NCBI GenBank assembly: GCA_020845895.1
Contig: JADLEX010000102.1
Span: 1 to 64,000, forward strand
DNA from: Deltaproteobacteria bacterium
Lineage (GTDB): Bacteria > Lernaellota > Lernaellaia > JACKCT01
Direction: 5' to 3'
Length of the DNA stretch: 64,000 bases
The position numbers and the translations under genes were made by a program. Numbering within the stretch: position 1 is the stretch's first letter; each line of letters opens with the position of its first letter. This document shows, piece after piece, positions 40,701 through 61,704 of this stretch. The notes beneath the pieces are model-generated. The model was not told where the DNA came from and did no database searches. It worked only from the letters and a program-made list of their open reading frames with translations.

Positions 40701-41160
40701 AGAACGTTTTCGCCAGCTCTTCGAGGGCGTCACCGACGCGCTCTTCGTACACGAAATCCGCTCCGACGGATCGCCGGGGCGGTTCGTCGAGGTCAACGAT
40801 CAGGCGTGCCGTCGGTTGGGATATTCGCGGGAGGAGTTGCTGCGGATGGGTCCGCGCGAGATCGATGCGCCGCCGCCCGAAGGGAACGAACTCACCCCGA
40901 TCGGCCAGCAGTTGCGCGCGGGGCGGTTCCTCACTTTCGAGCAGGTTCACGTCACCCGGGACGGGCGACGTATTCCGGTCGAGATCAGTTCCCGCGTATT
41001 CGAGCTCGCCGGTCGATCGATGGTCATGTCGATCGCCCGTGACATCTCTCAGAGAAAAAATGCCGAGCGCGCCCTGCGGGAGAGCGAAGAGCGATTCCGC
41101 ATGCTTACCGAGGAGTCGCTCACCGGCGTGTTCCTGCAGAATGAGGGTCGGTTGACCTAG
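37753..41160 (+). CDS. Multi-PAS membrane sensor, N-terminal part, ended by in-frame TAG
   Basis: The visible frame encodes 1,135 residues before TAG. An N-terminal region with about seven hydrophobic helices (1-240) is followed by a helix, a likely extracytoplasmic sensing domain with Cache-like strands (about 270-415), a closing helix and a run of PAS domains. Each PAS is introduced by a helix such as LRDSEERFRALAEN, LRRSEERFRSLVET or LRESEERFRMLTEE. A coiled coil (MVAERTEKLRKANEQLEAEV) separates the third and fourth. The last PAS is cut after EGRLT. The next in-frame codons continue that same PAS and lead to GGDEF and HD-GYP domains, so this is one 1,594-codon gene interrupted by a single TAG. 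The ATG at 37753 was preferred over GTG at 37690. Confidence 0.85.
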   Translation: MNLLTQQLDFLFGVQGLAFVVLASGNWVLAGRESARHPWDWFGLTSFFWGLCQWQDLISWSIGDGRMYNVVRVVLSSIAWFSLIEFNRRARVTTGDRPVPIWIYAVFAIPAFSGYAFGPSALDLTFHFALGIPAGIWTVWTFRRIANREAAGRTALCVAIVAFAIYILLAVIEIPLSPFDEGIHALRVQPDPVSILLRYASTGAAVVVAAAMWKFLRFSYFSDVRVRKILPYENALVWSVPLILVFGWIATTYAEKSIVAREMEQLQEAANIIAEESEWTNVSELNASEADLGGPVYGRIKQRLTSLRSAVKQCRFVYLMRRTGDQIVLLADSEPAESPDFSPPGQVYAEAPKAIFPLFETAGRLSLRYEDRWGRFDSAFVSLVDRQTGAVVAVVGIDIEAERLDQMAREARLLPLVVTLLFAGLVVTFLMAKQHDARAQWLLAQAEESMTALLDNIPETACLVDIRGQVLACNSEMRRRELKDVADHSDVNLPRLVPAFRDFWTGEQWSGLKSGTPGRFLVHEEDREIDYRVQPVIDEAARVSRLAILGIDLTERLRIEEALRAGEERFRDMALSSADWMWEVDASGKYTFASGRVEDVLGYRPDEVIGKSPFEFMDASESKRIIPIFQDIADRRAPIVDLENRCRHRDGSAVVVVTNGVPIVSADGVLLGYRGVDKDITARKFAEQALRDSEERFRALAENSPDVIMRFDREGRHLYVNPAVRRFAGFAPADFVGKTHREMGFPEDLCTLWEQTIRRTFEQGGIERIEFDLPDGAAIDWLLVPEFDASGAVTHVMTSARDITARKMAEEALRTTLDRLEQMVAERTEKLRKANEQLEAEVAERRRIEIALRRSEERFRSLVETNNDWICEITVSAEFTYNSPQVERLLGYEPEELIGKPFDLILSPDEAARFRRHFDSVASIGGRMKGFEWTAISREGRNVVFETNAEPFFDEGRLLRGYRSIHRDVTERKVADTALRDSEERFRQLFEGVTDALFVHEIRSDGSPGRFVEVNDQACRRLGYSREELLRMGPREIDAPPPEGNELTPIGQQLRAGRFLTFEQVHVTRDGRRIPVEISSRVFELAGRSMVMSIARDISQRKNAERALRESEERFRMLTEESLTGVFLQNEGRLT
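41158..41160 (+). other. In-frame amber codon inside the sixth PAS domain
   Basis: TAG stands between ACC (Thr) and TCC (Ser) at codon 1136 of the 37753 frame. Related PAS sequences usually have Tyr or Val at this point before the next strand, so TAC or TAT to TAG is a one-base change. The flanking frame has no other stop or frameshift over 1,593 codons. Confidence 0.85.
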
Positions 41161-58548: not shown

Positions 58549-58653
58549 ATGAAACGTGCCCTCGTCATGGTTTTGGCTTTGGCCGCGGTTTTGGCGATTG
58601 CCGCCGGCAGTTTCGCCGACTGGGAACTGAAGCAGGTCGGCGGCATCACGTAG
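58549..58653 (+). CDS. Signal-peptide part of the BNR/PKD protein, ended by in-frame TAG
   Basis: These 34 codons encode a typical signal peptide (MKRALVMVLALAAVLAIAAG, cut near SFA) and the first mature residues DWELKQVGGIT, then TAG at 58651-58653. The frame continues without another stop through PSQLYKVWAIDRNHLYVVG into the BNR repeats, so this is the N-terminus of the 58711 product. The mature start WELKQVGG resembles the first strand of a BNR propeller. Without read-through the peptide would be useless, and the rest would lack an export signal. Confidence 0.8.
   Translation: MKRALVMVLALAAVLAIAAGSFADWELKQVGGIT
58651..58653 (+). other. In-frame amber codon just after the signal peptide
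   Basis: TAG lies between ACG (Thr) and CCG (Pro) at codon 35 of the 58549 frame. The downstream frame has no stop for 586 codons. This is the second such interruption in the window, and again the codon follows a Thr codon. Confidence 0.85.
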
Positions 58654-58710
58654 CCGAGCCAGCTCTACAAGGTCTGGGCGATCGACCGCAACCATCTCTA
58701 CGTCGTCGGG

Positions 58711-60414
58711 ATGGGTTTCGACGGCCTGTTCGACGTGTTCAACGAGCACCTGATCCAGCGGAGCACCGACGGCGGCGACACGCTGGAACCCCTGTTCACC
58801 AAGAACATCAACCCGTTCTCCGGCGGCCTTTGCAACTCGTTTTACGCGGCATTCGATCTGCACTTCGACGATCTGTACGAGGGCATGGTGGTCGGCGCGT
58901 GGCACAACAACGAGTCGAACTGTCTGTTGATCTACGAGTCGAACTGGATCGCGAAGACGACGAACGCGGGCGCGGACTGGACCGAATACACGCCGGCGCC
59001 GATCTACGAGGATCACCAGCTCAACGCCCTCGACATTCACGACAGCGGCGTCGGCTTCGCCGTGGGCGACGCCATGAACGTGTGGAAGACCGCGAATGGC
59101 GGCGACACCTGGACGATCTCGAACAATGTGCCGTCGGTGTGGGGCAACGAAGCGCCGCTCCATGACGTGGATGTCGTGGACGAGGATCTCATCTACGTCA
59201 CGTCGGAAATGTTCATCGACGAGATCACGGACGATGACACGGAATTCGAGGAAGATTTTGACGGCGATGTGAACGGCATCCAGGGCGAGCTCCTGCGCAG
59301 CACCAACGGAGGGCAGTCTTGGGAGAGCCTGTTGAGCGACGCGAATCTGGGTTTTCATCAGGTCCAGTTCATCGACGCGTCGCGCGGCTGGTTGCTGGTT
59401 ACGAACGAGGACGCCGAGGTCACGCAGATTCGTTACACCACCAACGGCGCGGCGACGTGGAACAACGGGACGCTCCCGACGATCTCCGGCATCGGAGCGC
59501 CGGGAAGCGGCTACGTCATCGGCGCGTTTCAGATGCTCGACGCCGATATCGGCTGGGCGGTCGGCGGCAGCGACTACGACAACGATCTTGTGATCCTTCG
59601 AACGACCAATGGCGGGGTGACCTGGCAGGCTGATCCGCTCCGAGGAGCGGGGCAACTCTATTCGATTCATATGGCCAACGAGCGCGTGGGTTTTGCCGTC
59701 GGATCGCGCAAGGTAGTTGTGGGCTTTTATGAACCGGGCGATTTTGCGCCGATCGCCGACGCGGGTCCGGACCAGACGGTTCCAGTGGGAACGAACGTGC
59801 ACCTGGACGGCAGCGGCAGCTACGATCCGGACGGCGATCCGCTCACCTACCAGTGGACGCAGCTCTCGGGGCCGAACATCACCCTGGTGACGGACACGAG
59901 CGAGAGCCCGACGTTTGACGCCGACCAGGTCGGTACCATCACGATCCGCCTGGTCGTCGCCGATTACGACATGAGTTCCGCGCCGGACTCGGTGACGATC
60001 GAGGTTGTTGATGAGACGGACGACGACACCGACGACGATGTCGACGACGACTCCGACGATGACTCGGACGACGACTCGGACGACGACGACGATGACGACG
60101 ATTGGATTCCGGACGACGACGAAGACGATGACGGGGACGATGACTCGCCCTTCGACTGCCGGTCGCTCATGTCGATGCTCTACGATGTGTGCGACGCGTT
60201 TCTGACCGATTACGAGACACGCTTCGACGCCGAAAACGCTTGCGATGAAGAGACCGAACCGTGGGATTGCGCGGTCGAGTGCCGCGCGAACAACAGCGAG
60301 TGCGACGGGCTCTTCGAGTGTCTCGAGGATGAGTGCGACGTCGACGTCTCGCGAAACAAGATCGAAGAAGATACCGACGGCGGCGATATTTCGGGCGGAT
60401 GCAGCGCGTTTTAG
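58711..60414 (+). CDS. BNR-repeat / PKD-like / Asp-linker / Cys-rich secreted protein (main part)
   Basis: The frame downstream of the amber codon (first ATG here) encodes 567 residues. It holds at least six BNR/Ycf48-like repeats (RSTDGGDTLEPL, KTTNAGADWTEYT, KTANGGDTWTIS, RSTNGGQSWESLL, RTTNGGVTWQADP and one weaker), then a PKD/REJ-like domain (PIADAGPDQTVPVGTNVHLD). An Asp-rich linker follows (DDDTDDDVDDDSDDD and on), and then a C-terminal domain with nine Cys. The layout suggests a surface-exposed propeller protein with a flexible linker and a disulfide-rich end domain, possibly an anchor. It lacks a signal peptide unless joined to the 58549 segment. Its normal stop is TAG. Confidence 0.85.
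   Translation: MGFDGLFDVFNEHLIQRSTDGGDTLEPLFTKNINPFSGGLCNSFYAAFDLHFDDLYEGMVVGAWHNNESNCLLIYESNWIAKTTNAGADWTEYTPAPIYEDHQLNALDIHDSGVGFAVGDAMNVWKTANGGDTWTISNNVPSVWGNEAPLHDVDVVDEDLIYVTSEMFIDEITDDDTEFEEDFDGDVNGIQGELLRSTNGGQSWESLLSDANLGFHQVQFIDASRGWLLVTNEDAEVTQIRYTTNGAATWNNGTLPTISGIGAPGSGYVIGAFQMLDADIGWAVGGSDYDNDLVILRTTNGGVTWQADPLRGAGQLYSIHMANERVGFAVGSRKVVVGFYEPGDFAPIADAGPDQTVPVGTNVHLDGSGSYDPDGDPLTYQWTQLSGPNITLVTDTSESPTFDADQVGTITIRLVVADYDMSSAPDSVTIEVVDETDDDTDDDVDDDSDDDSDDDSDDDDDDDDWIPDDDEDDDGDDDSPFDCRSLMSMLYDVCDAFLTDYETRFDAENACDEETEPWDCAVECRANNSECDGLFECLEDECDVDVSRNKIEEDTDGGDISGGCSAF
60019..60144 (+). repeat. Asp-rich coding microrepeat (secreted-protein linker)
   Basis: Tandem GAC/GAT codons interrupted by ACC, GTC, TCC, TCG or GGG encode the Asp linker between the PKD-like and Cys-rich domains. 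The pattern matches the linker of the lipoprotein at 9.2-10.5 kb. Confidence 0.85.
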
Positions 60415-60421
60415 GGGCGGC

Positions 60422-61372
60422 TCAAGCGACCGCGCGACGCTCCGACCACCACCACGCATAGAGACCCGCGGCCAGGACGGGGAGGGCGAAGATCACGAGT
60501 TCGCCCTCGCCGGCAACCCCGAACAGCCCCGTCGCGACCGTGAGAAACACGATGCCGAGGGCGATCACGTCGAGTCGGGCGAACCAAGCCCCCGTCGGCG
60601 AGGAGTGCGCCGCGCGGTAGTCGGGCGAGGGATTGCGTGCGACGGACAGGAAATAGGGCAGCATCACGGCGACCGCGAGCATGACGAAATGCGACACACG
60701 GTTGAGTTTGATGAGATGCTGACCATCCAGGGCCTTCTGAGAAAAGTGAATCCCGCCGTGATCGAGCACCACGCGGCGAATTTCGTGAAATCCGAAATGC
60801 ACGGGAAACGGAATCAGTCCGAGCAGCGCCCACGCGCGGTTTTTCAGCCGCGCCGACGTGAACAGCAGCCACGGCGTCAAAAAGTCGAACCCGACCGAGA
60901 ACCACTCTGTGATGCCGCGCTCCACGTCGCGCAACGCGGGTGACGCCTTCATTCCGCGCGGAGGGGACCAATGCCACCAGTCCATGCGTCCGGCGGCCGT
61001 CTCCATGAGCAGCGCGAAACCCATCATCATCGAGCAGGAAAACAGGAGCTGGACGAGCAGATTGTCCTCGTGCGGCTTTCGTCCGGCGAGAAGACGTTCG
61101 GCGATGCTCCAGGAGATGTACACCGCGATGCACCAGCCCATGGCTTCGACCACGCCGGTACGTCCCACGGTCATGACGGACATTTCAAATCGGTACGGGG
61201 GTTTGCCGTTCGTGATCCAATAGACGAGGTTTCCGCGCAGAAGACCGAACCCGATCAACGATGCGAAGAACGCGATCGCCGTCCGTGTTCCGCGCATCTT
61301 CGCGCAGTGAAAGACGATGCAGACGAACGCGATGCTCGCGGGGATCGCGAGGACGAGAAAACTGGCCGACAT
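60422..61372 (-). CDS. Polytopic membrane protein of unknown function
   Basis: This 316-residue protein has about eight hydrophobic helices (FLVLAIPASIAFVCIVFHC, FFASLIGFGLL and others). The segment AMGWCIAVYISWSIAERLL followed by a helix ending in METAAGRMDWWHW resembles, in spacing, the core of the DUF422-type protein at 18.3 kb, hinting at distant relationship. No family is assigned. The start MSASFLVLA at 61372 was chosen as the first helix. The gene stands alone after a 332-base gap downstream of the rsmI unit. Confidence 0.75.
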   Translation of the reverse strand: MSASFLVLAIPASIAFVCIVFHCAKMRGTRTAIAFFASLIGFGLLRGNLVYWITNGKPPYRFEMSVMTVGRTGVVEAMGWCIAVYISWSIAERLLAGRKPHEDNLLVQLLFSCSMMMGFALLMETAAGRMDWWHWSPPRGMKASPALRDVERGITEWFSVGFDFLTPWLLFTSARLKNRAWALLGLIPFPVHFGFHEIRRVVLDHGGIHFSQKALDGQHLIKLNRVSHFVMLAVAVMLPYFLSVARNPSPDYRAAHSSPTGAWFARLDVIALGIVFLTVATGLFGVAGEGELVIFALPVLAAGLYAWWWSERRAVA

Positions 61373-61704
61373 GATGTTTCCCTGAAGTTCGTGGAAGGAC
61401 TTTAACGGGGCTTCACGAACGCGTGCAAGGGGCGTGCGGCGGGGTATGGGCCGGAACCGATCAACGAATGGCCCCAAGGAGCGCGTGAGTTCAACGGGAG
61501 GCAACCATTGTCACGTTTCGCGTCCCTTGGGGCCATTCGCCGAGCCATCGGCGTCTTCAGTCATCTCTCGATTTGAAGGGAAGCAAGGCTCGTGCCGGAC
61601 GAATCCCAATGTCCGTCGACAGAATTTGAGCGTCATTTCGCGCCGTTCGCCGGCCATCGCTCGTGTGCGACACGCGTCGGCGCCGTGAAAATCCGTAACG
61701 CTCC
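61373..61704 (+). other. Gene-free region with long inverted repeat
   Basis: These 332 bases lie downstream of rsmI and upstream of the membrane protein gene, both on the minus strand. The 84-codon plus-strand frame from 61434 spans the hairpin and has no family features, so I reject it. Apart from the inverted repeat at 61465-61539 I see no tRNA, promoter or element. The region may hold the terminator of the rsmI unit and the promoter of the membrane protein. Confidence 0.6.
61465..61539 (+). repeat. Imperfect 21-bp inverted repeat with 33-base loop
   Basis: The left arm CGAATGGCCCCAAGG plus AGCGCG (61465-61485) pairs with CGCGTC plus CCTTGGGGCCATTCG (61519-61539) with two mismatches. No T run follows on either strand, so it is not a classical terminator. 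It could be a structured RNA, a protein-binding site or a miniature-element remnant. Confidence 0.7.

Follow-up and report, generated by a model that had tools for sequence, protein, structure and literature searches.

A gene encoding a secreted BNR/PKD repeat protein is interrupted by an in-frame TAG at codon 35 (position 58651 of the window, i.e. the whole stretch of 64,000 nt that was analysed). Apart from this stop the gene is intact, and very probably the substitution of one base has created a nonsense codon. The substitution would be a consensus base error of the fragmented draft assembly (171 contigs), to which about half of the weight is given, or a genuine mutation that recently inactivated the gene in the strain sampled, with slightly less than half. 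The ancestral residue at codon 35 is not certain, and starting from the Asp of the orthologs, a TAG would need two changes. The nonsense change is favoured because relatives lack the stop, TAG is used for termination together with RF1, and neither PylS and PylD nor a CUA tRNA was found in the draft.

One gene interrupted by a single stop

The translation of positions 58549-60700 gives MKRALVMVLALAAVLAIAAGSFADWELKQVGGIT, a stop, and then PSQLYKVW..., with an open frame of 586 codons up to the TAG at 60412. It thus confirms the description in an earlier note, which had been made from the sequence alone and had reported a signal peptide, the TAG, and 586 open codons in the same frame. The cleavage motif of the predicted signal peptide was judged by eye. 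In the part after the TAG, the K319L-like PKD domain scored above the Pfam cut-off, and the BNR/YCF48-like repeats scored just under the curated cut-off. The features of the gene and the other mid-gene stops are listed in Table 1.

Table 1. Features of the interrupted gene and positions of further mid-gene stops (window coordinates, or locus coordinates where a locus is given)
Feature	Position	Strand	Basis or location
Start codon and signal peptide (MKRALVMVLALAAVLAIAAGSFA)	58549..58617	+	Translation; matching N-termini in orthologs and paralogs
In-frame TAG, codon 35	58651..58653	+	Sequence; relatives have a sense codon in this column (Asp in both orthologs)
Remainder of the gene: BNR/YCF48-like repeats, K319L-like PKD domain, poly-Asp linker, Cys-rich tail	58654..60411	+	Pfam, ortholog alignment
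Earliest candidate restart ATG past the TAG, weak Shine-Dalgarno pairing (-2.2 kcal/mol)	58711..58713	+	
True terminator of the secreted-protein gene, TAG	60412..60414	+	G001 ortholog likewise TAG
Other TAG of the window, in the last PAS domain of a PAS/GGDEF/HD protein	41158..41160	+	Real mid-gene stop
TAG in the catalytic domain of a GH84-like beta-N-acetylglucosaminidase	L096:1433-1435	plus	G000 contig C5
TAG in SucB, at a conserved Ser	L154:2087-2089	minus	G000 contig C110
TGA in a TPR protein	L189:10782-10784	plus	G000 contig C36

Orthologs were found in two relatives. The one from the related genus G001 (L013) is 52% identical, aligns over residues 1-618 of the query, and has no stop. 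The G002 ortholog (L014) has a sense codon at the TAG column and two frame breaks elsewhere. These two compensating frame changes (L014 lies on G002 contig C23, ~458600-460430) look like indel errors of that assembly itself. Synteny is supported by the gene next to L014 in G002, which is homologous to the neighbour downstream of the present gene (60425-61504, minus strand). Three paralogs, one from the same genome (L004) and two others (L034 and L035), are uninterrupted across the site and have signal-peptide-like N-termini. The residue at the TAG column is variable among the paralogs, and the same stop was found in none of these orthologs and paralogs. The earlier note had named homologs without the stop as a check, and they are present between genera.

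Because orthologs and paralogs run across codon 35, and the orthologs align on both sides of the stop, the segments before and after the TAG are, on the alignments, parts of one gene. The downstream frame is thus a real gene and its open length is not in itself surprising, so that the sole point at 58651 that needs an explanation is the single stop. As the frame has stayed open for 586 codons behind it, the change is either recent or artefactual. The orthologs are continuous from the signal peptide across the site, and therefore a stop at the TAG deprives the product of its export signal, as had been proposed beforehand. If the stop is real, ribosomes would halt after 34 residues, and a restart at the ATG at 58711 would yield a protein without an export signal.

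The real gene might also begin at 58711 or nearby, from where 567 codons are open, and the upstream stretch would then be unrelated to it. However, the orthologs begin at the upstream ATG and contain the signal peptide in a continuous frame, the Shine-Dalgarno pairing at 58711 is weak, and there is no second signal peptide past the TAG, which together make such a start the least probable of the readings considered here. Homologs that start downstream with a signal peptide of their own had been named as the refuting case for the interruption of one gene; this arrangement is contradicted by the orthologs.

Secreted proteins that combine a poly-Asp linker with a short tail rich in Cys form a family throughout the lineage, in the genome (G000) and in its relatives G001-G006. 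Unrelated proteins, e.g. L008, also carry the tail or the linker, which may be a common signal for anchoring or sorting.

Further mid-gene stops in the genome

A scan of 1.77 Mb by coding score and homology yielded five convincing mid-gene stops, four TAG and one TGA. These counts are lower bounds, as the scan was not exhaustive: the retrained coding model missed both ambers of the window, which were recovered by homology. The combination of the retrained model and homology replaced an initial codon-score scan that was dominated by antisense shadow frames. The TAG at 41158-41160 separates the sensor domains from the output domains of its protein. The column of the SucB TAG holds an invariant Ser in relatives and in solved succinyltransferases. 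The interrupted sucB is the only one over the cut-off in the genome, whereas both family relatives, G001 and G002, have an intact copy. That a conserved residue of the sole sucB should be hit tilts the balance towards error for some of the stops at least. The TGA in the TPR protein implies that the mid-gene stops of this genome are not confined to amber.

The five stops lie in unrelated genes and are preceded by codons for Thr, Thr, Val, Gly, and Glu. The earlier note had pointed out that both ambers of the window follow a Thr codon and had found chance less attractive for that reason. The further two ambers follow Gly and Val, and therefore a Thr motif was rejected. The residues expected at the sites also differ, and meaningful read-through is not supported by the two ambers. 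The base after the stop also differs between sites: it is C for the TAG at 58651 and T for two other ambers.

Random stop-making substitutions, calculated with the codon usage of this genome, result in TAG in 59% of the cases. Four TAG codons among five stops are thus expected (P ~0.3), which explains the excess of amber. At the observed density, the probability of two or more mid-gene stops is ~0.015 for one given 64-kb window and ~0.33 for a window anywhere in the 1.77 Mb sampled; the finding had been noted because this window contains two. Two mid-gene ambers in one 64-kb window are not improbable.

Because similar isolated stops, including a TGA, have hit unrelated genes at different residues and in different contexts, we infer that error or mutation, and not read-through, underlies the stop at codon 35. 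In bacterial genomes, the number of internal stops closely follows assembly error (PMC11017572). The spurious or internal-stop pseudogenes of draft bacterial assemblies described there share several properties with the present case, i.e. one in-frame stop in a gene that is otherwise intact, intact relatives, and several unrelated genes affected in one draft.

Termination and possible decoding of TAG

TAG serves as a regular stop codon in this genome. It ends 110 of the 486 confidently called genes (~23%; 1.2 Mb of the genome), and RF1 is intact, with a score of 534.8 bits compared to a cut-off of 423. The G001 ortholog likewise ends with a TAG at the corresponding position. A general reassignment of TAG was rejected, given its use as a terminator, the presence of RF1, and the TAG that ends the interrupted gene itself.

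A suppressor or pyrrolysine-type tRNA could nevertheless insert one amino acid at TAG codons, and several mid-gene TAGs in one genome, including that in the sole sucB, would be compatible with such dedicated decoding. However, searches for PylS and PylD gave only background matches below the cut-off, none of the 40 tRNAs found has a CUA anticodon, and a pattern search for a CUA tRNA hit only tRNAs for Glu and Arg and sequences that are not tRNAs. The set of 40 tRNAs lacks Tyr, Ile, Ala-TGC, Thr-TGT, Gly-TCC, and Leu-CAG; being incomplete, it leaves some room for a decoding tRNA outside the draft. The expected residues also argue against one inserted amino acid: Ser in SucB, Tyr in the GH84-like enzyme, Tyr/Phe/Asp in the PAS domain, and Asp or a variable residue in the 58651 gene, so that homologs show no single consistent residue, albeit at four sites only. 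The common use of TAG as terminator with RF1 and the occurrence of a TGA stop also speak against dedicated decoding, which is very unlikely. Pyrrolysine decoding shares an in-frame amber with the present case, but its genes were not found, the expected residues differ, and the affected genes are not methylamine methyltransferases; it was rejected. Amber decoding is thus not supported for codon 35, and mutation alone predicts mostly TAG.

Leaky termination is also unlikely, though less so than dedicated decoding. A near-cognate normal tRNA would read the TAG at low frequency, and a little full-length secreted protein would be produced, perhaps in a regulatory manner. A U after the stop codon is associated with strong termination, and the C at 58651 would therefore favour leakiness, but a T follows two of the other ambers, and the sites have no context in common. 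No stimulating RNA structure was found near the codon, as folding was not significantly better than that of shuffled sequences (z-scores 0.33, 0.16, -1.25, and -0.94), and structure-stimulated read-through was rejected. Conserved in-frame stops that are apparently read through have been reported in bacteria, with selection maintained downstream (PMC7918605), and they share with the present gene an intact frame behind the stop. However, the stop is common to orthologs in those cases, whereas it is present in no ortholog or paralog here.

Implications

The in-frame TAG is real in the sequence but ordinary. Lone internal stops in draft genomes resemble recoding when they are read alone, and caution is warranted. 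In GC-rich genomes random nonsense changes mostly create TAG, and thus an excess of amber is no evidence of decoding. The TAG in sucB is a useful site for read mapping. There is a slight chance that partial amber read-through is tolerated or used in this organism; genes with an in-frame TAG, among them the only sucB and that for the exported protein, would then give low levels of functional full-length protein, perhaps via a tRNA missing from the draft. If the stops are real and are read through, amber tolerance in an uncultured lineage could conveniently be tested with sucB and the 58651 gene.
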